NCBI GenBank assembly: GCA_001414345.1
Contig: LLCB01000201.1
Span: 1 to 64,000, forward strand
Direction: 5' to 3'
DNA length: 64,000 nucleotides
Source of the DNA: Hymenoscyphus infarciens
Lineage: Eukaryota > Ascomycota > Leotiomycetes > Helotiales > Helotiaceae
The position numbers and the translations under genes are program-made. How positions within the stretch are numbered: position 1 is the first letter of the stretch; each line of letters starts with the position of its first letter. The notes beneath the pieces were generated by a model. It was not told where the DNA came from, searched no databases, and was given only the letters and a program-made list of their open reading frames with translations. Below are positions 3,001 to 36,745 of this stretch, in pieces.

Positions 3001-6000
3001 CGATTACCTAGTATTATTACTAATAAGATAATAGATAAATAAATCGATTACCTAGTATTATTACTAGTAAAGTAATCGATAAATAAATCGATTACCTAGT
3101 ATTATTATTACTAAGGTAATCGATAAATAAATCGATTACCTAGTATTATTATTACTAAGGTAATTAATAAATAAATCGATTATCTAGTATTATTATTTCT
3201 AGTAAGATAATCGATAAATAAATCGACTACCTAGTATTATTATTACTAAGGTAATCGATAAATAAATCGATTACCTAGTATTATTACCTAGTAGTATTAC
3301 TATTAAAGTAATTGATAAATAAATCGATTACCTAGTATTATTACCTAGTAGTATTACTATTAAGATAATCGATAAATAAATCAATTACCTAGTATTATTA
3401 CTAGTAAGATAATCGATAAATAAATCGATTACCTAGTAGTATTACTAGTAAGGTAATAGATAAATAAATCGATTACCTAGTATTATTACTAGTAAGATAA
3501 TCGATAAATAAATCGATTACCTAGTATTATTATTTCTAGTAAAGTAATCGATAAATAAATCGATTACCTAGTATTATTATTTCTAGTAAAATAATCGATA
3601 AATAAATCGATTACCTAGTATTATTACTAGTACTATAATCGATAAATAAATCGATTACCTAGTATTATTATCTAGTAGTATTACTATTAAGGTAATAGAT
3701 AAATAAATCGATTACCTAGTATTATTACTAGTAAGATAATCGATAAATAAATCGATTATCTAGTATTATTATTTCTAGTAAAGTAATCGATAAATAAATC
3801 GATTATCTAGTATTATTATTTCTAGTAAAGTAATTAATAAATAAATCGATTACCTAGTATTATTACTAGTACTATAATCGATAAATAAATCGATTACCTA
3901 GTATTATTACCTAGTAGTATTACTATTAAGATAATAGATAAATAAATCGATTACCTAGTATTATTACTAGTAAGGTAATCGATAAATAAATCGATTACCT
4001 AGTATTATTATTTCTAGTAAAGTAATCGATAAATAAATCGATTACCTAGTATTATTATTTCTAGTAAGATAATCGATAAATAAATCGATTACCTAGTATT
4101 ATTACTAGTAAGATAATCGATAAATAAATCGATTACCTAGTATTATTATTTCTAGTAAAGTAATTAATAAATAAATCGATTATCTAGTATTATTATTTCT
4201 AGTAAAGTAATCGATAAATAAATCGATTATCTAGTATTATTATTTCTAGTAAGATAATCGATAAATAAATCGATTACCTAGTATTATTACTAGTAAGGTA
4301 ATCGATAAATAAATCGATTATCTAGTATTATTATTTCTAGTAAGGTAATTAATAAATAAATCGATTATCTAGTATTATTATTTCTAGTAAAGTAATCGAT
4401 AAATAAATCGATTACTATTATTATTATTACTAGTAAGATAATCGATAAATTAATCGATTACTTAGTATTATTTCTAGTAAGATAATCGATAAATAAATCG
4501 ATTACTATTATTATTATTACTAGTAAGGTAATCGATAAATAAATCGATTATCTAGTATTATTATTACTATTAAGATAATTAATAAATAAATCGATTATCT
4601 AGTATTATTATTACTAGTAAGATAATCGATAAATAAATCAATTACCTAGTATTATTACTTAGTAGTATTACTATTAAGATAATAGATAAATAAATCGATT
4701 ACCTAGTATTATTATTTCTAGTAAGGTAATTAATAAATAAATCGATTACTATTATTATTATTACTAGTAAGATAATTAATAAATAAATCGATTACCTAGT
4801 ATTATTATTACTAGTAAGGTAATTAATAAATAAATCGATTACCTAGTATTATTACTAGTAAGGTAATCGATAAATAAATCGATTACCTAGTATTATTATT
4901 ACTAGTAAGGTAATCGATAAATTAATCGATTACCTAGTATTATTACTAGTAAGGTAATCGATAAATAAATCGATTACCTAGTATTATTATTACTAAGATA
5001 ATCGATAAATAAATCGATTATCTAGTATTATTATTACTAGTAAGATAATCGATAAATAAATCGATTATCTAGTATTATTATTTCTAGTAAGATAATCGAT
5101 AAATAAATCGATTATCTAATATTATTATTACTAAGATAATAGATAAATAAATCGATTACCTAGTATTATTACTAGTAAGATAATCGATAAATAAATCGAT
5201 TATCTAGTATTATTATTTCTAGTAAGATAATTAATAAATAAATCGATTATCTAATATTATTATTTCTAGTAAAGTAATCGATAAATAAATCGATTACTTA
5301 GTATTATTATTACTAAGATAATCGATAAATAAATCGATTACCTAGTATTATTATTACTAAGATAATCGATAAATAAATCGATTATCTAGTAGTATTACTA
5401 GTAAGATAATCGATAAATAAATCGATTATCTAGTATTATTATTTCTAGTAAGATAATCGATAAATAAATCGATTATCTAATATTATTATTACTAAGGTAA
5501 TAGATAAATAAATCGATTACCTAGTATTATTACTAGTAAGATAATCGATAAATAAATCGATTACCTAGTATTATTATTACTAGTAAAGTAATCGATAAAT
5601 TAATCGATTATCTAGTATTATTACTAGTAAGGTAATCGATAAATAAATCGATTACCTAGTATTATTATTACTAAGGTAATCGATAAATAAATCGATTATC
5701 TAGTATTATTATTACTAGTAAGATAATCGATAAATAAATCGATTATCTAGTAGTATTACTAGTAAGATAATCGATAAATAAATCGATTATCTAGTATTAT
5801 TATTTCTAGTAAGATAATCGATAAATAAATCGATTATTTAATATTATTATTACTAAGGTAATAGATAAATAAATCGATTATCTAGTATTATTACTAGTAA
5901 GATAATCGATAAATAAATCGATTATCTAGTATTATTATTTCTAGTAAGATAATTAATAAATAAATCGATTATCTAATATTATTATTTCTAGTAAAGTAAT

Positions 6001-9000
6001 CGATAAATAAATCGATTACTTAGTATTATTATTACTAAGATAATCGATAAATAAATCGATTACCTAGTATTATTATTACTAAGATAATCGATAAATAAAT
6101 CGATTATCTAGTATTATTATTACTAGTAAGGTAATTAATAAATAAATCGATTATCTAGTAGTATTATTAGTAAGATAATTAATAAATAAATCGATTATCT
6201 AGTATTATTATTTCTTATAAGATAATCGATAAATAAATCGATTACCTAGTATTATTACTAGTAAGGTAATTAATAAATAAATCGATTATCTAGTATTATT
6301 ATTTCTAATAAGATAATCGATAAATAAATCGATTACCTAATATTATTATTACTAAGGTAATCGATAAATAAACCGATTACCTAGTATTATTATTACTAAG
6401 ATAATCGATAAATAAATCGATTACTATTATTATTATTACTAGTAAGATAATCGATAAATAAATCGATTACCTAGTATTATTACTAGTAAGATAATTGATA
6501 AATAAATCGATTATCTAGTATTATTATTTCTAGTAAAGTAATTAATAAATTAATCGATTATCTAGGATTATTATTTCTAGTAAAATAATCGATAAATAAA
6601 TTAATTACCTAGTATTATTATTTCTAGTAAACTAATCGATAAATAAATCAATTATCTAGTATTATTATTTCTAGTAAGGTAATTGATAAATAAATCGATT
6701 ATCTAGTATTATTACTAGTAAAGTAATCGATAAATAAATCAATTACCTAGTATTATTATTTCTAATAAAGTAATTAATAAATTAATCGATTATCTAGGAT
6801 TATTATAAATAAATTAATTACTATTATTATTATTACTAGTAAGATAATTAATAAATATATCGATTACTTAGTAGTATTACTATTAAGGTAATTAATAAAT
6901 AAATCGATTACTTAGTATTATTATTACTAGTAAGATAATCGATAAATAAATCGATTACCTAGTATTATTACGTAGTAGTATTACTATTAAAGTAATAGAT
7001 AAATAAATCAATTACTTAGTATTATTACTAGTAAGGTAATTAATAAATAAATCGATTATCTACTATTATTATTTCTAGTAAGGTAATTTATAAATAAATC
7101 GATTACTATTATTATTATTACTAGTAAGATAATTAATAAATAAATCGATTACTTAGTATTATTATTACTAGTAAGATAATCGATAAATAAATCGATTATC
7201 TAGTAGTATTACTAGTAAGATAATCGATAAATAAATCGATTATCTAGTATTATTATTACTATTAAGATAATAGATAAATAAATCGATTATCTAGTATTAT
7301 TACTAGTACTATAATTGATAAATAAATCGATTACCTAGTATTATTATTACTAGTAAGATAATCGATAAATAAATCGATTATCTAGTATTATTACTATTAA
7401 GATAATAGATAAATAAATCGATTATCTAGTATTATTACTAGTACTATAATTAATAAATAAATCGATTACCTAGTATTATTATTACTAGTAAGATAATCGA
7501 TAAATAAATCGATTACCTAGTATTATTATTACTAGTACTATAATCGATAAATAAATCGATTATCTAGTAGTATTACTAGTAAGGTAATCGATAAATAAAT
7601 CGATTACCTAGTATTATTTCTAGTAAGGTAATCGATAAATAAATCGATTATCTAGTATTATTATTACTAGTAAGGTAATTAATAAATAAATCGATTACCT
7701 AGTCTTATTATTACTAGCTAGGTAATAGATAAATAAATCGATTATCTAGTATTATTACTAATAAGATAATCGATAAATAAATCGATTATCTAGTATTATT
7801 TCTAGTAAGATAATCGATAAATTAATCGATTACCTAGTATTATTACCTAGTAGTATTACTATTAAGATAATAGATAAATAAATCGATTACCTAGTGTTAT
7901 TACTAGTAAGATAATAGATAAATAAATCGATTATCTAGTATTATTATTACTAGTAAGATAATCGATAAATTAATCGATTACCTAGTATTATTACTAATAA
8001 GGTAATCGATAAATAAATCGATTACCTAGTATTATTATTACTAGTAAGATAATCGATAAATTAATCGATTACCTAGTATTATTATTACTAGTAAGATAAT
8101 CGATAAATTAATCGATTATCTAGTATTATTACTAGTAAGATAATCGATAAATAAATCGATTACCTAGTATTATTACCTAGTAGTATTACTATTAAGATAA
8201 TCGATAAATAAATCGACTACCGAGTAGTATTACTATTAAGATAATAGATAAATAAATCGATTATCTAGTGTTATTACTAGTAAGATAATAGATAAATAAA
8301 TCGATTATCTAGTATTATTATTACTAGTAAGATAATCGATAAATAAATCGATTACCTAGTATTATTACTAGTAAGATAATCGATAAATTAATCGATTACC
8401 TAGTATTATTACTAGTAAAGTAATCGATAAATTAATCGATTACCTAGTATTATTACTAGTAAGATAATCGATAAATAAATCGATTACCTAGTATTATTAT
8501 TAATAAGATAATTAATAAATAAATCGATTACCTAGTATTATTATTTCTAGTAAGGTAATTAATAAATTAATTGATTATCTAGTAGTATTATTACTAGTAA
8601 AGTAATTAATAAATAAATCGATTACTTAGTATTATTATTTATAGTAAGATAATTGATATATTAATCGATTACCTAGTATTATTATTACTAGTAAAGTAAT
8701 CGATAAATTAATCGATTATCTAGTATTATTACTAGTAAGATAATCGATAAATAAATCGATTACCTAGTATTATTACCTAGTAGTATTACTATTAAGATAA
8801 TCGATAAATAAATCGATTATCTAGTATTATTATTTCTAGTAAGATAATCGATAAATTAATTGATTACCTAGTATTATTATTACTAGTAAGGTAATCGATA
8901 AATTAATCGATTATCTAGTATTATTACTAGTAAGATAATCGATAAATAAATCGATTACCTAGTATTATTACCTAGTAGTATTACTATTAAGATAATCGAT

Positions 9001-9740
9001 AAATAAATCGACTACCGAGTAGTATTACTATTAAGATAATAGATAAATAAATCGATTACCTAGTATTATTACTAGTAAGATAATAGATAAATAAATCGAT
9101 TATCTAGTATTATTATTACTAGTAAGATAATCGATAAATTAATCGATTATCTACTATTATTACTAATAAAGTAATCGATAAATAAATCGATTACCTAGTA
9201 TTATTATTACTATTAAAGTAATCGATAAATAAATCGATTACCTAGTATTATTACTAGTAAGATAATCGATAAATTAATCGATTACCTAGTATTATTACTA
9301 GTAAAGTAATCGATAAATTAATCGATTATCTAGTATTATTACTAGTAAGATAATCGATAAATAAATCGATTACCTAGTATTATTATTAATAAGGTAATTA
9401 ATAAATAAATCGATTACCTAGTATTATTATTTCTAGTAAGGTAATTAATAAATTAATTAATTATCTAGTAGTATTATTACTAGTAAAGTAATTAATAAAT
9501 AAATCGATTACTTAGTATTATTATTTATAGTAAGATAATTGATATATTAATCGATTACTTAGTATTATTATTTCTAGTAAGGTAATTAATAAATAAATTA
9601 ATTACCTAGTATTATTTTTACTAGTATAATTAATAAATAAATCGATTACTTACTTCTATTTCTCTTAAATTTATTATAAGGTAATTAATAAATAAATCTA
9701 TTATCTTATACTTTTTTTATATAGGTAATTAATAAATTAA
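1..9740. repeat. AT-rich satellite array, ~47-bp double-hairpin unit, ~200 copies
   Basis: The whole stretch is a tandem array of a roughly 43-50 bp unit, about 200 copies, cut by the left edge of the window. Each unit holds two palindromes. One has arms GGTAATCGAT and ATCGATTACC around an AAATAA loop; the other has arms CTAGTA and TACTAG around a short TTATTAT-type loop. Units differ mainly by C-to-T or G-to-A changes (GGTAAT to AGTAAT or GATAAT, ATTACC to ATTATC or ATTACT, TCGATT to TCAATT), plus small gains and losses of TAT or CTAG. Order decays between about 9,600 and 9,740. No gene is present. It could be pericentromeric, subtelomeric or an interstitial satellite; the sequence alone does not decide. 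Confidence 0.97.
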
Positions 9741-11612: not shown

Positions 11613-13812
11613 ATGTCTCCTCAATCAACCTATCAACATTCTTACTATACGGCCGATCTCGTTTATCCATCTGGTAATGTGATGTACCCTGCAGAACTTT
11701 CTATCGAAGATGTACAAATCACTTCCACTCACGATTCAACTGGACACCAGGCCGATTTGACAAGAGAACAAGGCTATCTAACCAACGGCAACACTACTGG
11801 TCTATATACACCCGCCAACAGCCAAGCAACAAGTCCTCTTCGCAGATTGTATACCCCATACGGTGGGGGATACCCACCCCCGTCTCCCGGGCTCTCATCA
11901 CAACGTTATTCCAACGTCATGGCTGCAGAAGAAAGACTCAGACTTGGTCTCCCTAGGTTCGAGTATCAGCAGCAACAGATTGTCTGCTACAACTATGAGC
12001 AGCAGGCTGATTATGTTAGCCTCTGGGAAAAGCCCATAGAGAACGATAAAAACTCTCTGCATGAGAAAGACCCCTTTCTAGAAATTAATTCCGCTCTGGA
12101 GGACGGTTCACAGATCACTGAGAGTATGTTCAAAGCTACATTTCTTTCAGGGTTGTCCGTGATGATGGAATTTGGAGACTAACACGAATTAATCAGATGC
12201 GCAAACGCCCCCAACGCACCTCCCAACGGAAGAGCAAAATTCCGATCCCAAAGTTCCTACAAGGCCCAACATAGCTTTCTTAAAGAAATACTTTTATCGC
12301 AAGGCCCGTCTAACAGTGGAGCAGGCACTGCATATCATCGAGGAGGGTACCAAGGTGTTGAAACAAGAGCCCAATATTCTAGAAATGGATGCACCAATTA
12401 CAGTGAGCGGAGATGTGCATGGTCAGGACTACGATTTAATGAAGCTCTTTGAGGTTGGTGGAGATCCCCCAGAGACGAAATATCCCTTCCAGGGTGATTA
12501 TGTCGATCGAGGGGATCATTCAACGAAGTCATATGAAGCTGCTAGACGTTTTGATCCATTCGATGAACTGGAGATGGCCCACAAATACAGAAAAGCAGCG
12601 CAGGTGAAGGGATTTTCCGGTTCTCGACGAACTTGGCGTCATGGGGATCCATACCCAAATATTTCCCAGGGAGTATTGAAAGAGAATAGGAGAAAGGTGC
12701 TGCGGGTAACGATGAGAGGGAAGGAACACGTTTCCTGTCCAGACTCTGGATCTTCTGAGAACATCATGAGCGAGGATTTCGCACACAATGAAGGCTTTCG
12801 AGTCCGTCGAAGCGGCAAGGATTTGAAGATGTTTCAACTAGGCAGTGGAAAGTTCGTATGGTCAATTGGCAAGGTAAAAGCTTCCGTTCTAGTACCGGGT
12901 CTTCCACTTGTCAGAAAGAAACAATCTTTCTTCGTGCTACCAAACTGCCCTGTGCCGTTGATCATGGGGCTGGCATTTCTGCAGGAGGCGGAGATAATGT
13001 CCAAGAACCGACACATACTCGAGAGTTGCCCAGCGGAATGGAAAAGCATCTCAAATCTTCTCTGGATTGGATCTCCTCGACCCCGAAACAGGATGAGGTG
13101 CTCATTGGATGGTCGTGATTTGACTGGTGTTGCAGACACCGGAAGTGATCTTAACTTGATAAGTTTGGAATGCGCCAAAAGAGAGGGGTTTGATATAGAC
13201 CGGAGAGAAACGAGTCGAAGACGGATTAAGTTTGGGGATAGAACGGAGGCAGAAACACTTGGGCAAGTTTATGTATATGACTTGGGGTTCTACTGGAGCC
13301 AACCGGAGACTGAACCACGGGAAACAACTTCTTCGAGTTCGGAATACTCTCTTCCAACCGCAGGACAGGATATACCGCAAGACAATCCGCACAAAGATAA
13401 TTACGAAATCTTTCACGTCCTCCCCGGTCTGCCATCTGATCTGATATTCGGACGAGACCTTCTCGAGCGACTCGATGCTTTCAACTACTGTCCGGATCTA
13501 CTAGTTGATGAGCACCCCAAAGAGCATGAACCTCATATTCCTGAGCTCAACGTATTGATAGATATGGGAGGTCTATCATTTTCGTTTTGGAGGCGACGGA
13601 AGAACAAAAAAAGAATTCCTACTCCTCACGACGAAAGAGAGCAACATGACGACGACTGGCATGCAGAACTTGGGCGGCGGTCACGGATAGAAGACGAGAT
13701 CTCACTGTTACCACAGCGTGAGCAGGCCCAAGCAAGAAGTGTGGAAAGACGAAAGGCAAGGATATGGGATCACCTTCATGCTCATTGTATACATTGTAAC
13801 CCTGTCAATTAA
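11613..13812 (+). CDS. Chimeric protein: calcineurin A fragment fused to two retropepsin-like domains (708 aa)
   Basis: Two exons, 11613-12123 and 12197-13812, are joined by a 73-nt intron with donor GTATGT, branch CTAAC and acceptor ATCAG. The spliced frame is open for 708 aa. Residues 1 to about 155 are Ser/Thr/Gln/Tyr-rich and not recognised. Residues about 158-276 match the N-terminus of calcineurin A (PP2B catalytic subunit): [26 protein letters not shown], then the metal-site motifs GDVHG (242-246) and GDYVDRG (270-276). The resemblance then stops, so GNHE and all later catalytic residues are missing and phosphatase activity is not expected. Two retropepsin-like domains follow, with DSG at 353-355 and DTG at 484-486, each ending in a hydrophobic-hydrophobic-G motif (LIMG, LIFG). 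The tail is charged. It may be expressed or a recent pseudogene; no frame break is seen. Confidence 0.72.
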
Positions 13813-15475: not shown

Positions 15476-16410
15476 AGCTAGTAGATCAAGCCCTCTTTAC
15501 CAGGCCGATTTTCTACGCCAAATGGTCTTCTTTCTCTTACTGCGGCCTACTTGGAAAACTAGCACATCGACAAAGGCGACTTCAAAGCCCACCACTTGTG
15601 CGAAGTGCAACAAAAATCCGAAACAACCAACTTTAAAATCGGCGATGGTTAGAATCAACCATAAGAGCAGGGCTAGGATCGATCCAGAGCTAGAGAAACA
15701 GACTTGGGCGGCGATATTACTAGTGGTATATCAGCGGGGTCTACGATATTTATTATATTGTATTAAGTATTCTAATTCATACTAGGTTTCTAAGGATAAC
15801 CGATAATATATTGATTATTAGTGGAAAAATAGTTTCTTCTGGCCTAAGAGCTAATAGAATACTTAGTCTTACTTTTTCTAAAAATAAAAATAAAGTTATA
15901 TGATTTTGATAGTAAATTATAACTATTTATAACTCTTAAGAGATTACTTATCTAATTTTAAGTCTTTTATACTAAATTAATATTTATATAATAATAATAA
16001 AGTAGATTTTAAAAAGAAAATATAAGTTATATAATGCCTATTTAATACTATAAGACTAGTACAAAAAACCTGATATGTAATCGATTATTATTACTTTTTT
16101 AATAATATTTATTATATCAGATAAGAATTTATGATATTTGTCCACGATATAAATATCGTATCGTCGCCTAAGTCTGTAGAGAAATGATCACGGCTAGAAT
16201 TGACCCAGTTTTACAGAGTGCAACAAAAGTACAAAATGGCTGTGGCTAGTTTAAAAATGGCCAAGTTTTGTACAATGGAACAAAAAGGCGAAAACACAAC
16301 CCATAGATAAAGGTATATGCAAATTTCTTTGAATACAATCTACCTATAAAGCCCAAGTAGCCTGCCAGAACATCAATCCATGATATAGAATGCCCTTTGA
16401 AGACCCCGGC
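15471..16410. other. Intergenic with AT-rich, RIP-like stretch (15.78-16.15 kb)
   Basis: About 15,780-16,150 is strongly AT-rich with almost no C or G, unlike the genes on either side. It includes a diverged sequence at 15,792-15,821 that resembles one arm pair of the left-edge satellite. No gene is seen. Confidence 0.5.
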
Positions 16411-22515: not shown

Positions 22516-23517
22516 GGTTGCGTGAGACTTGGACTGAGAAAGGTTGAAGAGTTGCGCGATGGTGATGGGAGGTTGTGAATAGCATCAAGGTTGATTCCAA
22601 AGTTCCGTTGGCTCATGATACCGAGGCTCACTCGGTATCGGATCGGAAGACTCGGAGCGACTCGGAGGACGGGGAAACGAGAGCTTCAGGGGCCGAATAT
22701 CTGATAGCCAAGGATAATTAAGCATGATAACTCTAAAGAATCCAGCTTTCACCAAAATCCATAAATCCCTCCGCGTCATTCAAAACACAAGTAAGCTAGC
22801 TATTTACAAGCCCAATTCTTAACATCATATCAGCTGCCTAACAAGCTCCAAACCCACCTGCATTCGTACTCCGTACAAGGATCAAACAGTCACCCAAGAG
22901 AAGAGAAAGTAAGACATTCGTATCCAACACCGACTAGCTGACCTCATTCCCCATCACCAGACACACCACAACAACGAAAATCAACACCCTCAATCTCGGT
23001 AGCGGCCCGTTTCCTCTCATGCAGGTAATCGCGACATGCAACGAAATTCTCAAATCGTTCGTTCCCAAAAGAAATGAAACACTTTCCCCAGATAGGTCTG
23101 CATAATATTGGTCCTTCCACGTGATGCAATAATCATGTGGGGTGGATGAGAGGCGACTCATGACTCAAAATAGAGTTTGTCATTTGCTGTTTTGGCGCCA
23201 TTTTTGGAGATTGCATATTGCTTCTTTTGGATTGGGTAAATGCGACAGGAAATCGCGATGTGCAACAAAGCTGTGGTGTGCTTTTCAGCTTTTGCGGGCC
23301 GTTCCGTTGTGGGGGGCTGGATGAATAGCATTGTGACACAGGTGTAACTTGGCCGAATATCTTCAAAAGGTACGCCGTAAAGTTGAGATATTTAGTTATT
23401 AATAAGTGGTCTAAATTCCGCTTCCTTCATTTTCCTTGATTGCTTAACGACATCTATCTAATTTTCATTTTATTTCATTTCCTCAAGTATCCTCCATGTA
23501 GTATACCCCCTTCATTG
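22516..23517. other. Intergenic with two copies of the dispersed 26-bp motif
   Basis: No gene is recognised. Partial motif copies lie at about 23,025-23,047 and 23,251-23,270, both ending in a GCAACRAA core. Confidence 0.4.
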
Positions 23518-24600
23518 TTACTCCATCCACCACTGTTCGTTGACTGTCTATTGTTAACAAAATCCCTTGATTCGAGCTTTACAAAACATACCTTGATGTA
23601 GCCAGCTTTTGCCTTATGTCTACTATTCAACAAATTCCATATTTGAGCGAAGAAATTCAACAACTCAACGGTGAAAATCGTTACGCCAGCGTAATAAACA
23701 TATGTCTAACAACCACAAGTTAGCACTCATCCTCTCACACCATCATCATTCCTCTTCGATGACCTCTTCCAGCCTTCAGGAAATCAACCAACTCACCATC
23801 TCAACACAAGTGCTCTCAAACCCAATCCTCTTATTCCCAAAACTAACCTCGAACTCCTTATGCGAACAAGTCCAAGTCCAAAGATCATACTGCGAATTAT
23901 CACTCTTATTATCCCAACTCTTAAAGTAAACCACAGCACCAAACCACAGCGCACAAGCCACGAAAGTCGAGGGTATAGAAATCAACGGGCGAAGTTTGGA
24001 GAAGTGTTTATTTTTAACCTAGTCTATTAGCGAGGTCTAGTAGCAAAACTCCCCTAGCCAGAAGCCAGAGAATTGAGGTAAACAAACAAGTAAAAGCGCA
24101 ATGAAATTAACGACAAAAGCAAGAACCGCAGCTCCCAGAAACAAATACGTGGGATAAAGTTTCAACCCTTCCGGCCAAGCCGGTAACTCCATCCCAGAAG
24201 GATATTTGAAATTCGCGAGTGCACTACTCCCTCTTAAATACAGTGTGTGGCCAAGTAAGCCGATTATCGTAATGCTGAGAAGTAAACTAATAATACGCCA
24301 AGTTACTTGAATTCCGTGGGAAATTTGATAGCGGGGTTGTCGCTCCTTAGTTTTTAAATCTTCGTGATCGAAGGGAAGTAATCGGTTTTCTGGATCTATA
24401 TGTGTGTACGCTGTGGGCGCCTCGTAACCAGGAGCTCCATATGCGGATTTTGACAATTGATCGTCATTCGAAAGCGTCGTTGTAATTTTTGGAACATTGT
24501 ATGATTCGGGCGGTATATGAAAAGCATCGTGATGGGCGGGGTCGTCGTAAATATCGATCCTAGGGTGAGAAGAGCCACCCGTTTGTCTGTATGGCTCCAT
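23518..24600 (-). CDS. Four-helix fungal membrane protein (about 292 aa, spliced)
   Basis: The start ATG at 24600 opens MEPYRQTGG; an upstream in-frame stretch has weaker support. Exons: 24600-24088, 24018-23797, 23705-23592 and probably 23547-23518. The introns are 69 nt (donor GTTTGT, branch GCTAATA), 91 nt (donor GTGAGT, branch GTGCTAAC) and 44 nt (donor GTATGT, branch GTTAAC). If the last intron is retained, the frame continues to a stop at 23475 and the protein is 321 aa. The N-terminal 110 residues are polar. Four helices follow: VTWRIISLLLSITIIGLLG, YLFLGAAVLAFVVNFIALLL, LISIPSTFVACALWFGAVV and YYAGVTIFTVELLNFFAQI. The topology resembles MARVEL-like four-helix proteins, but I cannot name the family. 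Function unknown. Confidence 0.72.
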
Positions 24601-25067
24601 CTCAAAAATTCCGTGAAATTCAAAAAAAGAAAGAAAATAGCTAAACCAAGAAAGACAAATGGGAAACGGAAAACCAAATACCTTTTCTGTTGTTGCCGTC
24701 AGCACTTGTTAGCCCATCAGCCACGGCCGACAACTGTGGGGGATGCATGAACACGGCGCAAGCGGCGTCAGCACCACTTTAGTTTGCGTGCTAGAAATGA
24801 ATAATTTCCATTGATATTGATTGTCTATTGGGTGATTCGGTCTACTTTCCTGACCTTGGCCTTGAAGGATTAGCAAAGCAGAATACTGAAAGAAGTTGAG
24901 AGGCTGATGTGAGCAATTCTCTCACCTCCCCGATAGCCGATTCAAAATGAAGCTAGCCGCCAGCGCGCTAGGCTAGTTTCCCGGATTTTAAAATTCGTGC
25001 GTAAAGAACCACGGAACAATTCATACACGAAGTAACCCAACTATGGGAACCAAAAAACAACCTCGTG

Positions 25068-25245
25068 GGTAAGCTACTGTAACTGAAGCCTGAAGTAAGC
25101 TGAACAATTATCGAGTAACCCATCGATTGTCGAGTAAGCCATTCCTCGTATTCGCGGGCTAAAATGAAGGTTGGGGGTAGGCCATCAATCATCGAGTAAG
25201 CTAAAAAAACATTTTCGAGTAAACCATCCTTTATCGAGTTAGCTG
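25068..25245. repeat. Degenerate tandem cluster of TCGAGTAAGC-type units
   Basis: Seven or so imperfect units of the form (T)CGAGTAAGCYATC occur at 25,068, 25,092, 25,111, 25,130, 25,190, 25,214 and 25,234, spaced about 19-60 bp. A related cluster lies at 32,981-33,180. Confidence 0.6.
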
Positions 25246-25951
25246 CTTCTATGATAGGTGTAGTAAATTTCGAGAAACTGGATTCGATTCTCTCCGGACT
25301 CTGGCGTGCTGAACAACAGTGAGAGATGACAACTGCGACATTATCACGTACTGCCTTCTACCGCAGGTGCAGGAATCCGTGACTGTAGGTAGTACCTTCC
25401 ATCTTTAATGGAGCTAAATCTTTCATGAATATGAACGTAAGAAAATGGTCCAGCCTGTTGATAAAACATGAACCGAGTCTTGATTGAATAGTTGGAGTGT
25501 ATAATAGGCATTCTACCGCTGGCAAGCTATAAATTCTGCGCCCCCTGGTGTTCGGAGACGTAAGCCAACCAAGAATGACTTTGCCCAACTTCTTTATGCT
25601 TGACGCTCAAAATATATATTTGCGGAATCGAATAACTGAATAACGCAGAATAACCTGCGTACCACTCGGTCACAAATCCACACCAGTTATAAACCCGGGA
25701 TTGTAAAATTGTCCTAACAACCTGTCTCTTGCAATTATCACATTCCAAATTTCCCCTTCCAGGCAAAACCGCACTTGGAACCAAATTTTCCGCGATGTGC
25801 ATACCGCTTGGAAACTAGTTCCCGACCAAAAGAACGGGTTGTCACTCAAACACACGATCCAGAAAATCGGCGGCGCACCAGGGGACCCTAACGAGTAACA
25901 ACGGATAACTCCTGTTAGAGCACACTCGTCCGCCCCCCGACTGAGACAACA

Positions 25952-28885
25952 TTTGCGATATGCAACAAATCCAGCTTCTCAGGAGGTAGAGTCTCCATTG
26001 GGAAAGAATGAAACCAGACTTGTCGAATCGTGGGGTTGGACAAACTTGGACAACTCAGCAGTCCAACCATGAACGAGACTGGCTCTACGGGGACGCTTCG
26101 ATCGTCGGATTCCTGTACCGCCTAGTGCATATAACTGCAAGACTTCTCTAGCTCTGAAAGAAAATCGCAAAAATATACAGAAAATTTAAAGAGGTCTATC
26201 AGCTAGTAGTTCATTACTAGATTAAAGTATCAATTTTTTTTTAGTTATAATTGTGGTTTTATCAAGGTTTTACAACGATATCTTATGTACTAAACTCCGA
26301 CGATGCAGCCGTCCCCGTAGAGACTGGGTTTGGTTGAACAAAACAGTTTGTTGTCCTCAATGCGACAGGAACGACGGATTTCCGCTTCCAAACGACGAGC
26401 ATGGGACTCTAGTACTATGAAGTGTGAAGTGTGAGAGGATATCCTCGAGGCTCGAGGCGGTTTCGAGACGGGGCTTGCGGGAAGTTCTTGGACCCGGGGA
26501 AGCTGGGGTACCAAGAGGGGGCCAGCTCTCTTGGAAGTCTGGAGCCAAGTTGTCTCGATGAGCAACAAAAGATTGAAAGATTGAGATGTTCATCATGACG
26601 TTGAGAGAAATGCCGCTAGATTTTGGGAAGGACAAGCTGTAGTTTATTGGAAACAGTGACTGCGTGACAAGATGGGTGAGCCACCGTCCACCAAAGTAGC
26701 GAGTCAAGTTCGTGATGGCAGTTCAAGAACAAGAAAAGCGAGAAGAAAATTTTCAAGATCTTGTAAAGAAATCAAGTTTCAAACTAGGAAGCTCATCCTG
26801 AGCCAAGTTCTTACGACTTGCAACAAAACTGATGGAGAGTGTTTCCCAGAGACGGATTGGGAAAGTCAACCCCCTTTAGTGCATCAAAGTACGCCACTAA
26901 GTCATCAGCCAAGTTACTACGACTTGCAACAAAAAGCAGAACGATGGAGATCAAACTGTTGCGATGTGCTACAAGTCTAGGAGCCTAGGAGTCTGAGTGG
27001 CTGTGGACGCCAAAGAGATTTACACTGTTGGGGTTGAGCGGTATCTAAGAGGGATGGGCTTAGAGGTATCCATTAAGCAGTCTCGTTCTTCAGCTTCTTC
27101 GATTTCACCCGACAAATAGACTCTGAATATCACATGTTCATAGGAAGAACAAAGTTACATTTCAAAGAAACGTCCACAAGCCAACCTCAAAGCTAAGCCA
27201 GCCGCCAAGTTGCTTCGATTTGCAACAAATCCCAGCTATTAACTCCAAATAGCTAGACCCAAGAGCAATCCGGAAAGACGGCTTCTACTTACATGTAACA
27301 AATCCACAAGGAGAGAGAGAAAAACACAAGAATGTTGTGCAGAAGAAAACTTCTTTCGGCAGCATCTATCCGTCGGTGACTTGTAAGAGCCCAGGACGGG
27401 GAAAAGGCCGATGTAGCGACTTTGAACGGGTGCGACTACGAGTCTACATATAGTATAAGTAATTAGGGCATAAGAAGTATATCCGCGCTTCCCTTATTTT
27501 GAACAGAGAACTCATCTCTATCACTATTTCAATCTTCAAGTCTGTACATTGGAAAGAATTGCCGTCACTCGTGTAAGCACGTTTTCAAAATGCTTTTACA
27601 CAAAAGCTCGCCTCATATTTTCCCAAATACCGCCGAACTTTATGTGGGGTGGAAAAAGTAGGAAGACGGAGAATTGCCAGTTGGTTGCGATATGCAACAA
27701 AATAAAGATTATTGTCCATTTTAGCATTTAGACTTTAACACTCGGTGTGTCGGTGTATAGCTGGAAGGCCGATGAAGTTGACGAGAGACAACCACAGTTA
27801 CAGTACTATGAATTCGGTTGTGTGAGTATTCTTCTGTATGAATTCTTCCCTTTAAGAAAAACAATTATTTTCCCTTGACAAGACACCACTTAGAAGAAAA
27901 CTAAGAAATCCAATCCAAGGCTACCCATCCCATCTTCTCGGCGCGCCTTAATTCAAACCCGAGACCCCTAATACAAGAATGAACCCAACACAAACCTTCA
28001 ACACCCATAATTACAAACCGTTGCACATCGCACCAACTTGGCATACACATCATCAAGAGCCAACCCGTCAGACCGCCTCCAAAATTCTCCATTCTCACCA
28101 GTTTTGTTGCATTTCGCTCAACTTGGCAGGGGCAAGGAAGGAACTAGTTTGCTACCGGGCCCGGAGAGAAGGCTTCCTCCTTCTTTTTCAATTCTCCAAA
28201 CTAGCAAGCCCTGAACTGGAACCAATAGTTTGTAACGCAATATTCGTCATTGTACTGGTATCCCAGTTGGTGGAAGTTTTGTTGCAAGTCGGAGGAACTT
28301 GGCTTTTCTTGTTCAGATGGGATTGTTTTCTATCTTGGCTTTGAATTTCGATGTCCACCTGTGTTAACACACCAAGATACCACGAGAGCAAAGCACAAGA
28401 GCGATCTTTTGATTTGTGTCAGGGAGTGTGAGATAAGATATACATACATACCCAGCACCAGTTCTCCAAATCGTTAGAGTACTCGACATTATCGTGAACC
28501 AACATGGCCGAGGAGAGTCAGGAAATTGTAACCCTTCTCGATCAATAGCTCTGACATTTGATAATGGGTCGCATCACAGGGTAGAAATAATACTCAACCC
28601 TCTTACCAACCAGAGGAAAATAGTTACCTCCTCCTCATTAGCCCAGACCCTCTCAGTGCGTGAAAATAAGAAATCCAGCCTCTTAACCAAAGATAAACAA
28701 AGTTCGCCCTAAGAAAACAAACTAACCGGCCTCGAATCATCTCGACACGCCTCGCCAAGTTCCCTCGAAATGCAACAAAACGTCTTCTTAGCATCTGGAC
28801 CTTGAACTTTTACACAAACACAAGGAGATGGGTGGACACTAGAGAGGGAAGCACCCCTGCCAAGCTTGTTCGATATGCAACAAAC
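25952..28885. repeat. Dispersed 26-bp intergenic motif, main cluster
   Basis: The consensus is GCCAAGTT, four variable bases, CGA, two variable bases, TGCAACAAA. Good copies: plus strand at 26,544, 26,802, 26,908, 27,203, 27,675, 28,754 and 28,859; minus strand at 28,021-28,042, 28,101-28,127 and 28,276-28,303. Partial copies with the right half: 25,952 and 26,953. Outliers outside the span: 23,025, 23,251, 31,888-31,911, 32,215-32,237 and 32,571-32,596. Copies lie in both orientations, are not tandem, and their flanks do not match each other. Confidence 0.8.
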
Positions 28886-29501
28886 TACTTGGAGCTGCCT
28901 TGGTCTTGCGGTACGTTGAATCCAGAGGTTCTGTAAAGTAGAAAAGGAACAATATGTAGGTCTTTAGTGGGATATAAGAGCTGAAGCTACTTAGTCTTTG
29001 AAGGGTGGTTTGGAGGAGGGGAAAACTGATGATGGAGAAATTATAGAAATTGAAGCTTGGGGGTTTTGTGTGTTTGGATCATAGCCCCCCCCCTTCTACA
29101 GCCTCGAGTGAGAGCAGACAGGACGTTTCGCGATCCCTGAATCCTTGGGAATTGATCAAATCGCATACAAAAGACCTTGCAAAATACCCTGTAACACACT
29201 AGTAGCTCCCTTCACGTCCTGCCTATTCCCCCAAGAGACTGTATATCCTATGGAGTGGTGCAGCTGCATTTTGCAGCTTTCACAAGAAACTCGTATATCA
29301 TACCTCGATGTCATTTGGGTACTTGTATAGCTCTCCTATCCTACCGCCCACCAATCCATGACCTGCATCTAGGCTTGCTTGCCTTTTGTTCATATACATC
29401 TTGTTATATTAGCCGCAGCCATCTCCAAATAGCATGGCCTCGCGCTCTCCAGGCTCCCACATCGCCGTATATTTCATATTTCGATTCGAGGTCCAAAATC
29501 A

Positions 29502-29880
29502 TCATTCCCCCCTCCTTCTTTCCTGGCCGACCATACTCTCCTCCCTACTCGCCCCATTCATCCTCGCCTCCGTCTGCTTAAGTTTCTTCTCCAACCCCTG
29601 TCTCTTAACAAGTAATCCGATCTTCTGTTCCTCCAATTGTTCGATCTTCTCGGTAGGCGTTGCTTCAAGCCGTTCTTGCGCTACCTATCGCGAACATTAG
29701 GAAACGAAAAATGGAACAAGAGCCAGAGAGAGAGAGAGGATAGCATACCTTCTGAACATCACTCTGTATCTTCAACCCCGCTCCATACCATGCTCCTACC
29801 ATGGTAATGGACGCAATCGCTCCAGTCCATATAAATCGACGGATCCTCTGAATTTGTGCGAGTTGTGCTGGGGTGGCCAT
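29502..29880 (-). CDS. Small single-helix coiled-coil protein (104 aa, 2 exons)
   Basis: Exon 1 (29880-29749) encodes MATPAQLAQIQRIRRFIW followed by one helix, TGAIASITMVGAWYGAGL. Exon 2 (29684-29502) encodes an acidic-basic coiled coil (ATPTEKIEQLEEQKIGLLV, then KRQGLEKKLKQTEARM) ending RRRGE. The 64-nt intron has donor GTATGC and acceptor GATAG and keeps phase 0. Without splicing the frame stops soon after the helix in an unrelated tail. Short fungal proteins with this layout are common in Pezizomycotina and look like mitochondrial or ER inner-face membrane anchors; I infer location only from the N-terminal basic helix. Function unknown. Confidence 0.75.
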
Positions 29881-30149
29881 CTTTCTTCCCTCGTTCGCGG
29901 GTTTGGTAATTGCAAATCGAGGTTCTCAGACCGTCGTGTGGGATTTTCATCTCATCATCGCGGAGGGATGGAGTCTCAATTACTGATTCGCGGTTCGGAA
30001 TTGGGGAGGCCCGTTGTTTGGTTGTGATGTTTGTTGTTTGTTGTTGGAGGAGGCCTGCTGAGGTTCCGATGTGAGATGTAATACGACCCCTGCGGAGAAA
30101 GCTGAGACCATCGAATTAAATTCCCATCTTCAATTCCGACTTTCTGTGC

Positions 30150-30485
30150 TCAACACCAGAATTCTCTCCATGCCTCGTTTGCCCTCTTGTCTCTTGTTTC
30201 CTTCATTTTCCTTCCAACAGCGGCGTGTTCGATTAAAACTGGTCTTTTGACGATCGCTGTGTTTCGTGCTTTGAAGGCATTGATGCGCACAGTAGTTGTA
30301 GAGTAGTTCCAATCCTCCAACTCTGTATCCGCAGAACAATCCGAGGAATTGGAGGAAGAAGATGAAATGGACGAGCAACTCGAATCTCGTCGGCTTATCC
30401 CCATGCGAGGGGAGTCTGAAGGATGATTGGTGGGGGAAACCACGGGGGCGGCACCATTAGAGGCTATCCAAGTGAGTAAGCGCAT
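30150..30485 (-). CDS. Small Ser-rich hypothetical protein (111 aa)
   Basis: One uninterrupted frame from ATG 30485. It has a hydrophobic start (MRLLTWIASNGAAPVV), a run of serines (CSSISSSSSNSSDCS), then a well-structured basic-acidic tail with WNYSTTTVRINAFKARN and KETRDKRANEAWREFWC. There is no known domain. The alternation of low-complexity and ordered parts and the lack of shadow from another gene favour a real gene. The neighbour on the left (29.88 kb) is also on the minus strand; SHB17 starts 402 bp away on the plus strand. Confidence 0.5.
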   Translation of the reverse strand: MRLLTWIASNGAAPVVSPTNHPSDSPRMGISRRDSSCSSISSSSSNSSDCSADTELEDWNYSTTTVRINAFKARNTAIVKRPVLIEHAAVGRKMKETRDKRANEAWREFWC

Positions 30486-30887
30486 TGCGTTGATTTCTCA
30501 AAAGTACTGTACAAGAAGAAGACAATTGTTATAAATTAATATATTTGTTTGGGATCTGTGTATCTATACGCTTCATCAACTTCATCAAATTCAAATCCCC
30601 ATCTGTCTCCTAGTCCGGTTATCAATCACCAAAGTCTCAATTGACTCGGCTCTCTCCCTCATCCGTACAGTACCTTAGCTCGCGGAGTTTGGTGACTTTG
30701 GTCACAGCGTTTCCATGTTTCAATTGCAATAAAAAGCCCAATCCCATCACCGCATCCGAAACACACCGCGACAGCGGGTCCGACGCTTCAAGCTCTTGTC
30801 TGATCTCCTTCACTTTGCACAATCGCCAAGTTCAACACCAAATTTATCCGTGCGATCCCTCTCAGACCGAGCCGATTAGGAAGCGTC
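30486..30887. promoter_or_regulatory. Divergent promoter region of the Ser-rich protein and SHB17
   Basis: The 402 bp between two divergent start codons hold no gene. No specific site is recognised. Confidence 0.4.
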
Positions 30888-31787
30888 ATGACAACCCCTC
30901 GTGTCTTCGTCGTTCGCCACGGTGAGACAGAGTGGTCCTTGAATGGGAGGCATACTGGAGTTACCGAGTTACCACTCACCGCAAACGGGGAGAAGCGTAT
31001 ACGTGCTACGGGTAGGGCTTTGGTGGGAGATGATAGGTTGATTGTTCCCAAGAATTTGGCCCATATGTTTGTTCTCAACACCATAAAACAAAACAAAAAA
31101 AAACAGTATCAAATTCTCATACTGATTCCCTCTCAGATTTGTCTCCCCTCGTCGACGTGCTCAAAGAACTTTGGAGCTTCTAGATCTAGGTTGTAAAGAG
31201 AAATATCCATGGCAAGATAAACACGAAGCATGTGATATCCGCACCAATGCGAAGGTGGAAGTTACTGAGGATATCCGAGAATGGGATTACGGTGACTACG
31301 AGGGTATCACATCTCCTGAGATCCGAGAGTTGAGGAAGAAGCAAGGTCTTGGAGATTGGGATATCTGGAGAGACGGTTGTCCGGGTGGAGAGTAAGTCAT
31401 ACCCTCTACATCCGCACCATTTTTTCACAATGAGACGGTAAGACAATATCCAAATACTAACGTAAGAATAGGTCACCAGAGGATGTCACAACCCGCCTGG
31501 ATCGTCTCATCTCAAAAATCCGCACCAAATACCACAGTCCTTGCATCGGAAAACCCCTCTCAGAGAAACCAGCCGGCGATGTCCTCCTCGTAGCCCACGG
31601 CCATATCCTCCGCGCCTTCGCAATGAGATGGGTAAATTCAACTCTCCAAGATGGACCGACCTTCCTACTGGAAGCTGGGGGTGTAGGTACCCTAAGCTAC
31701 GAGCATAAACGTATTGAGGAGCCTGCGATTTTGTTGGGTGGGAGTTTCATGGTTGATGAGTTGGTTGAGCTGGAGGCTAAGAAATGA
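30888..31787 (+). CDS. SHB17: Sedoheptulose-1,7-bisphosphatase-like histidine phosphatase (249 aa, 3 exons)
   Basis: Exons 30888-31066, 31137-31391 and 31472-31787 join in frame. The introns are 70 nt (donor GTTTGT, branch ACTGAT, acceptor CTCAG) and 80 nt (donor GTAAGT, branch TACTAAC, acceptor AATAG). The first join restores [20 protein letters not shown]. The histidine-phosphatase signature [24 protein letters not shown] carries the catalytic His; a second His sits in [26 protein letters not shown] provides the acid. [16 protein letters not shown] is typical of the yeast Shb17 branch of the phosphoglycerate-mutase superfamily. Shb17 removes phosphate from sedoheptulose-1,7-bisphosphate, driving carbon toward ribose. 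The protein is slightly shorter than yeast Shb17 (271 aa). A related sugar-phosphate phosphatase is the main alternative. Confidence 0.88.
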
Positions 31788-33310
31788 TATGCATGTAAAC
31801 ACACTTGAGAGGGGGGTAAATAGAGAAATAAAATATTCGAACTGGACAGGGTGAGGGTTATATTGAAGATATTAAGTTGGAGGAGAGGTTTGTTGCACTT
31901 CGCAGTTCTGGGAGGCGTATTAAGCTTAATACCATACACCTCGCTTCGATGAAAGCTCAGACGGGTTTCTTCATCTCATCTCCCCCTTTTTCTGTCTTCC
32001 CCTGTCTTGTCTCGTGCTCTCGTTCTCTCGTTCTCTCGTTCTCTCGTTCTTTGGGCACAGACTTATGGATTTTCTGGCATTTGGTTTGGTTGGTCTGGTG
32101 GTTTGACGACACGGTTGGTCTTGCAGTTTCGTTTGGTTGGGATCTGAAATTGAAGCGACTCAGGTCCGAGACATCGCCACACAGGGAACCACAGGGTCAG
32201 TAATTTCATCGTAACTTCGTTGCACATCGCATTGCTCATGCAGGGAGACCTGAGGTAACAATTTTCTGCATGCTTTTGTGGAGCCTTGAACTTCATTTCT
32301 TGACTGATTTGATCTTTTTGGGTGAGGATATGGGATGAGGTTTTGAGGGTGGCAAAATGTGGATTGGAGGGTATTGTACGGCATGATGAAATTGTAGACA
32401 TCCCTTTCTACGAATTTCCAGTACGAGTGTACACCTACCTCCCTTTAATCCCCCATTTTCTCATCACCCATCCTCACATCAGCAACCGCAGTAACCTAAA
32501 CCTACACCCCCCCTTCTTCGGACCTTCCTCCTTTCCCCCAACTCAAATCCACATCTCCACCTCAAGATATTTTTTGTTGCACCTCGCAAAATGCGGCGGA
32601 GAACCCTCTGATACAAAATCCAAAGCACCCCCTTGGTCGTTTGTTCCATCCAAGCCAAGACGTCCAGAGACTCCATTGTTTTCTCGTTTCGTCTGGACTT
32701 TCCTTTCCATTGACGCCGGACAGACGAGTGGGTCTTCGGCGGGGAAGGGGAAAACGGGGCAAGGAGTTTTGACCTGAACTGGATTGAGCTTGGAGGCGGC
32801 ATTTGTTGTATTGGGATGGTTGGTGTGGGAACGGAGTGGAAGTGTTGGAGGGCACAAGTAGTTGATGTGGTACCTTGCTCAAAAAGACGGGAAAGCAAAG
32901 ATATCAATCTGGGGTAACAGTTGAATTTTACTTATATTTTACTCCTTGGGGATAAAGTCGCATTGTTCATGAGCGACTGGCGAGTAAGCTGCGAGTTACT
33001 TGTGGGTAAACCATCAGTCACTCATGAGTAAGCTGTTGAACCGTTAAATGATTTGCGAGTAAGCTGTCAGCTAGCTTGCGAGTGAGCTACTAGTTACTTG
33101 TGAGTAAGCCATTGGTTACTTCGTTTTTGAGTTGATACCTTACTCCATAGCTCATTCGTTGGCTTACTGGGTCTTTATCACCTCGCTAACAAAATCAAAA
33201 TCTCCACAAGCTGATTAAGGCGTTCGCAAGATATTCCAACTAAACGGCGCATATATTCTTGGGAGTAGTGACACCAAAATTCTAAAAATTCTTTATTTTT
33301 CAACCCAGCT
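31788..33310. other. Intergenic between SHB17 and ALO1 ends
   Basis: The two genes converge here. The stretch holds a (GTTCTCTC)n run at about 32,014-32,050, three copies of the dispersed motif (31,888, 32,215, 32,571) and the second GAGTAAGC repeat cluster. Open frames of 100-150 codons near 32.3-32.9 kb occur on both strands over the same bases without domains. Confidence 0.5.
32981..33180. repeat. Second degenerate GAGTAAGC repeat cluster
   Basis: Units such as GCGAGTAAGCT, GTGGGTAAACC, ATGAGTAAGCT, GCGAGTGAGCT and GTGAGTAAGCC recur about every 20-35 bp, separated by GTTACTTG-like spacers. The same unit type occurs at 25.07-25.25 kb. Confidence 0.6.
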
Positions 33311-34942: not shown

Positions 34943-35530
34943 GATGATGATGGCGGCACTCTGTAGAGAAGTTCAGGGGGGGCCTGGGGGGGGGGGTATA
35001 GAATAGGGAAGAAGAGGAGTTTCTGCGTTGTCAACACATCGTTCGAGGCGGAGGAGGTTCCTGAGGTGTATTTTGGCTATTGCGCGTGTCGCGGATGAAT
35101 GCCTCGGTGGGTGAGAGTGGAGGACTTTACATCTTGTCAGTGTTGGCCAAACTTGGGGGGGTGGAGGGGGGTAGACGGGAGTTGAGGCCAGGCTCCTTAC
35201 TGTAGGTGGGGGAGCCGCGAATGCAGGGGCCTGGAAAATAAGGTAACTCGCAAGATGCATCTCGAGACCCGACAGCCTCCGACTCTCACCGCTTAGAGAG
35301 AGACATGCATCCAGGTGATGGAGTCAAGTGCCGAGAGTCAACTTTGCTTGTCTATACCTGCTGTACAATTTCATTTGTTTACTTTCTTGTCTTCTCTCGT
35401 TTGTAGGAGACCCTCAAAATACTCTTCTATTTCGTTACTCTCTTGCAATACGCTCTAGGCTCTTTCCAAAGACCCCCTCCGATACGAGGATCTCCGGACC
35501 CTGCATCTCAAACACTTTTCATCGGCTTTG

Positions 35531-35821
35531 GCTAAATCTCCTGACCCTTTTGACTAAAGCGCCTGACTCTAACCCGATTAGGCACTCTTATCGGGCTTGT
35601 ATAACACTAATTCTCTATTCTAAGGGATAGTGACTTGGTTTTCGAGGTTAGGGTTAGTGGCTAGAGGTTAGGGTTAGTTAGGGTTAGGGATCGGGTATGG
35701 GTTAGGGCTAGGGATTAGGGTTAGTGATATATGATTCTGCACTTTAGTAGTGTTCGGGACCGGAAAACGTCCTAATTTGGTTAGATCAGGCGATTTAGTC
35801 AAAAGGGTCAGGGGATTTAGC
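35531..35821. mobile_element. ~290-bp inverted-repeat element (MITE-like) with interstitial TTAGGG repeats
   Basis: The arms at 35,531-35,581 and 35,771-35,821 are about 85-90% complementary over about 50 bp; the core CCTGACCCTTTTGACTAAA is identical in the left arm and the complement of the right. The spacer includes 80 bp of degenerate telomere-type repeats (35,646-35,725) with about seven TTAGGG units. The flanks outside the arms share a short direct sequence (AAACACTTTTCATC on the left, AAACTCTTTTCATC on the right), possibly an old target duplication. Confidence 0.6.
35646..35725 (+). repeat. Interstitial TTAGGG-type telomeric repeats
   Basis: About seven GGTTAGGG/TTAGGG units, interrupted by variants such as GTGGCTAGAG and ATCGGGTATG. 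TTAGGG is the usual telomere repeat in filamentous ascomycetes. Genes lie on both sides, so this is not a chromosome end. Confidence 0.8.
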
Positions 35822-36745
35822 AAAACTCTTTTCATCCCACGAGTCAAAACCCACTGACTCTCTCTTATCGGCCCATGATACCTCAAGAATGATCCGATGA
35901 GACCATTTGCTATTCAGACGCAAAACGGCCTCGTCACGATCAGGAGGAGCATCAAACCGCCTTGGACGGGGGAAACAAGAAGAACGTATTTCCTTGGTCC
36001 CTGTGTGATGGTCGTATTGCAATTTGAATCTTGGGAACCGGACCGGATTGAAAACGATCTGAGTCATCTGACAGCCGCTTTCTAAACTCTATTTCAACCA
36101 CCCAGAGAGTCAGAGACATGACGGATACCCGGGTTGGGTTGGGTTGGGTTGGTATTCCACCAGGAACGGGCGCTTGCAGATTGGCTTGCAGATTGGCGGC
36201 GAAGACCAAGATTGAAAACGAAGCTCGAAATTCGATCTCCAGTTCTGTCAATCGATTCATGAGCGTTGCGGGTGACTATGTTCCGATGGCATTGAGAGCG
36301 CAGATTAGAAGGAAGATGAGATGAGATTCGCAACTCCATCGGTGACACCACAGTCAAGAGCTGATTATTTTTTTCTTTCTTTTCTTTCTTTTGAAACTAG
36401 GACTTACCGAATAATCCAGGCATACCTCCTGAGCCGCGAGACGCGTATATCAGAATTTTGACATTCATATCAGATGTCTGGAGTGGGCAAGGATGATCGA
36501 GGTGTCGTTCAGTCTATTCAAGCCCAAGACTAATTCTTCAAGGAAGAATCCAGCTCTAGTCTCAGCGCATTACAATATCCACCGCTCGTCTATTGAACTG
36601 TGCGACATGACCGAAATTACTGTTCGTCTAGTCTAGTATTACATGGAGATTGGAAAAAAGGAATATTCCGATGTCGGATGAAGGTCATTTGATGGATCCG
36701 CTGTCTGAAAAAGACAACAATTTGGACAACGTACCATGATGTGTG

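Follow-up and report, generated by a model that had tools for sequence, protein, structure and literature searches.

An intergenic repeat of Hymenoscyphus infarciens with a genome-wide core and locus-specific adjoining blocks

In mating-type and cell-cycle genes, the elements of Mcm1's partners adjoin the Mcm1 site. PMC6173580 describes Mcm1 as paired with Rap1 at preferred distances and, in other clades, with different partners. Here we describe a repeat with a comparable layout in a 64-kb stretch of the Hymenoscyphus infarciens genome (the window, the first 64 kb of the 110-kb contig LLCB01000201.1). The repeat consists of two parts, a right part that occurs genome-wide (the core) and a left part that is private to the locus (the block). 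As in Mcm1-type composite operators, arrays of the core set a common site next to putative partner sites at set distances, and a second conserved site at a near-fixed distance from the common core was found in 11 of 14 groups of copies (p < 0.05). The blocks here vary by locus, in contrast to Mcm1 sites, and the arrays hold up to ten copies without an evident promoter bias. The core, CGANNTGCAACAAA, is also unlike the consensus of the Mcm1 (MADS) site, which makes the analogy one of function and not of membership. With this restriction, Mcm1 composite sites are the nearest working analogue.

Arrays of short motifs are also known from systems of other kinds. The clusters of the determinant of selective removal (DSR) in Schizosaccharomyces pombe are short-motif arrays that act as RNA. 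PMC3820632 treats S. pombe sme2 as a long non-coding RNA (lncRNA) locus for pairing, and also the pairing centres of Caenorhabditis elegans, whose clustered short motifs vary from chromosome to chromosome and are recognised by related proteins. The repeats described here resemble pairing centres in being clustered short motifs that differ by locus, but their clusters number in the tens and are spread over many contigs, and several of them have private blocks. They resemble sme2 and the DSR clusters as short-motif arrays in non-coding DNA, but the array orientation flips and no RNA signal was found in the fold, Rfam and fixed-distance searches given below. Sites of the HMG-box, RFX, PAC-box and mimp terminal inverted repeat (TIR) types were also considered, and none fits the core throughout. 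Among the matches listed, the open-licence PMC literature gave no description of a tagged core in about 400 copies. At least one of three 9-mers of the core occurs in 681 papers, and the 30 listed have titles that look unrelated. Six 12-mers gave two papers with one of them, a study of a fish heat-shock gene and one of an Otx2 reporter.

The two-part motif in the window and in the genome

The first-pass annotation, made from the window sequence alone, had noticed a 26-bp motif with ten strong copies at 26.5–28.9 kb and about 17 in total over 23.0–32.6 kb, and this motif proved real. Its composite form, GCCAAGTT-N4-CGA-N2-TGCAACAAA, occurred in the window five times exactly, seven times at ≤1 mismatch and nine times at ≤3 mismatches, with all nine confined to 26,544–28,884. 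The tenth strong copy (copy 7 in the Table) differs in the length of its spacer, and seven weaker copies, core-only or degenerate, complete the 17. Both orientations are present, as annotated: seven of the strong copies lie on the plus and three on the minus strand, and the orientation switches twice within the array. In each of 200 dinucleotide shuffles of the window there were no matches at ≤3 mismatches, compared to the nine observed, and no exact cores, compared to 13 observed. At ≤7 mismatches the window was not clearly above the shuffles (34 observed; shuffle mean 18, maximum 34).

The flanks of the strong copies do not match, as had been claimed. Over the nine copies other than the one at 28,103, mean pairwise identity across 30 bp was 0.27 on the upstream side and 0.25 on the downstream side, which is the chance level. 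In the same nine copies, all 20 specified positions of the motif were conserved in at least eight, and five of the six free positions were widely variable, the sixth being T in seven copies.

Table. Copies of the composite motif and of its core in the window
Feature	Position	Strand	State
Composite copy 1	26544..26569	+	1 mismatch
Composite copy 2	26802..26827	+	exact
Composite copy 3	26908..26933	+	exact
Composite copy 4	27204..27229	+	exact
Composite copy 5	27676..27701	+	core exact, 3 mismatches in block
Composite copy 6	28017..28042	-	block exact, 3 mismatches at end of core
Composite copy 7	28103..28127	-	block and core exact, spacer one base shorter
Composite copy 8	28278..28303	-	exact
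Composite copy 9	28754..28779	+	exact
Composite copy 10	28859..28884	+	1 mismatch
Core alone	25955..25969	+	exact GCGANNTGCAACAAA, without GCCAAGTT block
Degenerate core	26961..26975	+	2 mismatches
Core with different upstream block CAGGTAATC	23031..23045	+	1 mismatch
Core with block CAGGAAATC, similar to CAGGTAATC	23255..23269	+	exact
Core alone, between converging coding segments	31889..31903	-	exact
Core alone, between converging coding segments	32216..32230	-	1 mismatch
Core alone, between converging coding segments	32573..32587	-	exact
Single core, beyond the range first annotated	15600..15614	+	exact

The genome search covered 65.6 Mb in 742 contigs. Exact copies of CGANNTGCAACAAA numbered 403 against 8 for the reversed pattern, both counts being lower bounds, and GCGANNTGCAACAAA at ≤1 mismatch was found at 691 places against 45 in the control. 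The core, (G)CGA-N2-TGCAACAAA, is 14–15 bp long. Exact forms with altered spacing were nearly absent (GCGA-N1 at four places and GCGA-N3 at one, compared to at least 100 with N2), which indicates that the core is a rigid unit. The whole-genome scan proposed in the first-pass annotation thus gave a divided answer: the core is genome-wide, and the full motif with GCCAAGTT is local only. At ≤3 mismatches, GCCAAGTT stood beside a core at 18 places in the genome (control 4), nine of which are in the window array. The other nine carry exactly three mismatches each, and by our own arithmetic about 11 such places are expected by chance among about 400 cores. Beyond chance, GCCAAGTT beside a core is confined to the window array. 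The genome-wide occurrence of the right half and the restriction of the left half to this locus had both been missed at first.

The cores are clustered. Using 388 of the 403 exact positions, we counted 142 adjacent pairs within 1.5 kb, where 3.4 are expected for a uniform distribution; 123 of these pairs have the same orientation and 19 the opposite. The same positions form 65 clusters of at least two cores within 1.5 kb, the largest holding 9–10 exact cores (C1, C115, which is the window, C129 and C141). Orientation is uniform in 17 of the 28 clusters with at least three exact cores and mixed in 11, including the window and C1 (-+-++-+--). Outside this genome, two long patterns matched no viral contigs, and TTGCGANNTGCAACAAAAC gave 25 stretches with one match each in 257 Gb of prokaryote DNA, compared to about 30 expected by chance from our own arithmetic.

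The claim that the motif lies outside genes also held. None of the 17 window copies falls in a called coding segment, and no coding call was made between 18.9 and 31.4 kb. The codon-usage model missed a small gene at 24.0–24.7 kb and a small gene candidate at 29.4–29.9 kb, neither of which contains any of the 17 copies. Elsewhere, none of 99 core occurrences at 50 other loci lies inside a coding segment of the model; this sample, from which 33 of the 83 loci had been set aside as overlapping, including every locus of the window array, still holds about 11 repeats among the 99 occurrences, and the retained loci L011, L014 and L019 overlap one another.

Blocks adjoining the core at individual loci

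The blocks differ from array to array. Within the window itself, the two cores at 23.0–23.3 kb have in common a block other than GCCAAGTT, CAGGWAATC. The C129 block is GGRTCARGG-like, that of C79 is CGGRTATTAAA, and several C1 cores carry an AACCYRGGTT-like stretch. Two C80 copies have an AGAATT(T)CGGAAAATAAAC stretch, both C56 copies have TTGGTGGCTGT, and in C35 a AGCCAAGA-like stretch stands farther upstream. A type bearing GGGACAATTTCAAAAAT was found at five loci (C16, C23, C24, C43 and C95). The arrays C141, C321, C447 and C647 were counted only, and the block comparison covers the other arrays.

Among the 137 copies with ≤1 core mismatch, the best upstream 12-mer (within 40 bp) agreed at ≥10 of 12 bases in 15.4% of 306 within-group pairs, compared to 1.05% of 9010 between-group pairs. 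Groups with at least three copies, assigned by hand from the locus coordinates, were then compared with sets drawn from other groups. Without correction for the number of groups, an upstream block was significant at p < 0.05 in the 11 groups already mentioned and at p < 0.01 in eight of the 14, whereas a downstream block reached p < 0.05 in three. The window group W26k includes the core-only copy at 25,955. It leaves out the copies at 26,544, 26,961 and 28,017, whose cores carry more than one mismatch.

Two arrays call for separate mention. Positions 2648–2675 of L011 (C1) and 1489–1516 of L025 (C13) have 28 bp of block and core in common at 93% identity, so blocks may be common to a few loci. 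At C1:834–837 kb (L011, L012, L014 and L019), cores stand 65–80 bp apart in alternating orientation with the AACCYRGGTT-like block between diverging cores, inside units of ~172 bp that are duplicated at 75% identity.

Proposed composite binding sites and the rival explanations

The combination of invariant and free bases, rigid spacing, unrelated flanks, intergenic position and occurrence on either strand points to a protein-binding site on DNA, and the conservation of a private block across an array points to a composite site. On balance, we lean towards the view that the repeats are composite DNA-binding sites, with one factor on the core and a locus-specific partner on the block. Three options had been put forward at first for the motif (a remnant of a very old mobile element, a binding site for a factor and a source of short RNA), and the binding site appears to be the best fit to the spacing, the free positions, the flanks and the strands.

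From this anatomy we infer a binding protein, a partner and an output. One sequence-specific DNA-binding protein, or a fixed complex, would read the core everywhere in the genome. The adjoining block would be recognised, array by array, by a partner or partner domain, and only factor and partner together would hold firmly. Together, the ten sites over 2.4 kb may form a single strong regulatory array within the gene-poor region 24.8–28.9 kb, the likeliest output being control at the transcriptional level, either of a neighbouring gene or of an unannotated transcript. The main array is flanked by the 5' end of the 24.0–24.7 kb gene, which on the minus strand is turned toward the array, and by the 3' end of the 29.4–29.9 kb candidate. 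If the repeats are composite sites, they point to a new DNA-binding factor widely used in this fungal group, and the arrays are ready-made, locus-labelled substrates for finding it.

Several observations weigh against composite regulatory sites. Core-facing gene ends were 3' in 33 and 5' in 13 of the 46 flanks with a coding call, a count that is biased by the use of 3-kb loci, in which a gene with a long promoter may go undetected; 3' ends faced the core on both sides at five loci and 5' ends on both sides at one. Considering also that the segment caller makes false positives (at 20 bits, 58 calls in real sequence and 8 after reversal), we treat the 3' excess as a lead. Among 30 neighbouring open reading frames, 17 of which have a Pfam match at E 0.001, we saw no obvious regulon or theme. 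In the block comparison, three other flank windows were also more alike within groups (3.3–3.9% of pairs at ≥10 of 12 bases) than between groups (0.4–0.75%), so local duplication plays a part in some arrays. Three of the 14 groups, C106, C1a and W32k, had no significant upstream block, and the blocks of C17 and C13 were marginal (0.049).

Resemblance to the sites of known factors counts on the same side. PMC3618310 gives GCCARG as the hexamer of PacC, a pH-response factor, and GCCAAG in the window block fits it in nine of the ten strong copies, a resemblance of six bases only. Near several C106 cores there is ATTGG, likewise a resemblance only to a known factor. The blocks of most other arrays are unrelated to GCCARG. 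PacC sites are not known to require a CGANNTGCAACAAA neighbour.

The lack of an evident promoter bias and of a theme among the 30 neighbouring frames leaves room for an architectural role. A structural protein might sit on the core, as at an insulator, a polar replication barrier, an origin or a site of meiotic pairing or recombination, with the block as a locus address; we consider this possible but rather unlikely. The intergenic cores, the unrelated neighbouring genes and the excess of 3' ends are consistent with it, and so is the mostly uniform orientation within clusters, seen in the 123 same-orientation pairs. PMC3820632 offers a precedent in the C. elegans pairing centres, where paralogous zinc-finger proteins recognise short motifs. 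However, the 3' bias may stem from the 3-kb loci, and the 11 clusters of mixed orientation include both C1 and the window. For origins in particular, PMC10945306 has lower-abundance yeast Mcm sites preferring divergent over convergent flanks, and the core flanks show the opposite bias.

A related idea, which we think unlikely, is a two-part chromosomal address code, in which the invariant core would mark hundreds of intergenic sites and the private block would give each array its identity. Partners, or a family of related proteins, would then read the blocks and allow a locus to be recognised individually. Such a code, if true, would serve locus-specific regulation, pairing or silencing, and would be a new way of distinguishing loci.

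It is quite unlikely that the arrays are small non-coding RNA genes, or give one lncRNA each, with the core as a promoter or RNA motif and the block as a conserved seed. The uniform orientation of 17 of the 28 larger clusters favours this, as does the strand difference in upstream folds: z fell below -2 in 12.7% of 102 exact-core copies on the core strand and in 5.9% on the opposite strand. Across four windows and both strands of these copies, however, mean fold z-scores, computed for the observed copies only, were -0.35 to -0.07, which is no overall signal. Six cores (L023, L056, L065, L066, L075 and L079) have an upstream 17-nt palindrome, TAGTAGNNNNNCTACTA, with one change in L023 and in L075. 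Pairing in the hairpin is kept through a double change at one of seven pairs, the inner one, in these six sites chosen for the palindrome, and the paired changes could equally reflect a palindromic protein site. Also in favour, L036 (1305–1515) and L073 (693–903) have ~217 bp in common at 75% identity, ending one base beyond the core; the homology could be the trace of a unit that has the core at one edge. On the other side, an Rfam search of 40 of the 83 loci (~120 kb, partly overlapping) gave no match at E ≤ 0.5 and hence no known structured RNA family in them, and T-runs, A-runs, TATA, CCAAT and 6-mers at a fixed distance were not common to all groups in 130 contexts. A scan for bacterial promoters and terminators, a type unsuited to a fungus, gave no excess. 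The window array also flips its orientation twice. The suggestion of a short RNA source thus gained no support from folding, Rfam or the T-run analysis.

It is very unlikely that the repeats are what remains of a transposon family (its terminal or subterminal repeats, or tails of short interspersed nuclear elements) after erosion to a common core. Longer homology around the core does exist at a few loci, namely in type A units of ~110 bp at five loci and in the L036/L073 pair. All-against-all comparison of translated frames of ≥40 residues, over part of the window and the 52 of 83 loci kept after 31 were dropped as overlapping, found no protein common to the arrays. Matches of 20–68 residues linked six pairs of independent loci; some come from other repeats, and none joins multi-core arrays at different places, except a 20-residue match of L030 and L076 inside type A. 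The window flanks at chance identity, the free positions that differ between copies and the strict N2 spacing also stand against this origin, as do the inverted pairs, which are just 19 of the 142 adjacent ones. The idea of an old mobile element is therefore unsupported: the free positions differ, inverted pairs are few, and the multi-copy arrays are not linked as a set by a protein or by long homology. The pattern of a TIR transposon or of a miniature inverted-repeat transposable element (MITE) was likewise absent: inverted pairs within 1.5 kb are the same few, and element-wide homology was seen only in type A and L036/L073.

Functionless local duplication, each array having been copied from a short stretch, is most improbable: the C1 units and the somewhat greater likeness of flanks within groups fit it, but the N4 and N2 bases would have been copied too, and these differ among the window copies while the 20 specified positions stay, and the common core across the genome would be left unexplained.

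Neighbouring genes and other repeats

The minus-strand gene at 24.0–24.7 kb is small and conserved, with five homologues and no Pfam match; the candidate at 29.4–29.9 kb is also small and was recognised by eye. At the other loci, the Pfam matches of the neighbouring frames include pectate lyase, aldo-keto reductase, MBOAT, ESCRT-II, mitochondrial carrier, thiolase and Clr2; L050, one of the 17 matched frames, scores below Pfam's cut-off. A signal peptide peptidase gene lies at 16.4–18.0 kb of the window, and its product is 96% identical to a protein without a name; the best named match among the 120 listed is from Hymenoscyphus albidus, at 85% identity. Other recognised named matches among those listed are from Leotiomycetes, which places the host among helotialean fungi near Hymenoscyphus. 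One open frame at 12193–13812 encodes a fragment of a calcineurin-like phosphoesterase followed by retroelement-type aspartyl protease domains, and is perhaps a chimeric or relic gene.

The window contains repeats of other kinds as well. Its first 9.6 kb (1–9649) is an AT-rich tandem array made up of ~208 copies of a 47-bp unit, with TAGTATTATTACTA-like stretches. An inverted repeat at 26083–26322, CTCTACGGGGACG...CGTCCCCGTAGAG, measures ~240 bp end to end with ACTGG on both flanks, and resembles a MITE insertion immediately ahead of the motif array. Degenerate GAGTAAGC-type repeats occupy two intergenic stretches 8 kb apart, 25107–25243 and 32980–33121. A repeat at 35519–35834 (305–316 bp, with inverted ends) is 95% identical to a repeat in L048 and 83% identical to one in L065, and likely represents another MITE family.

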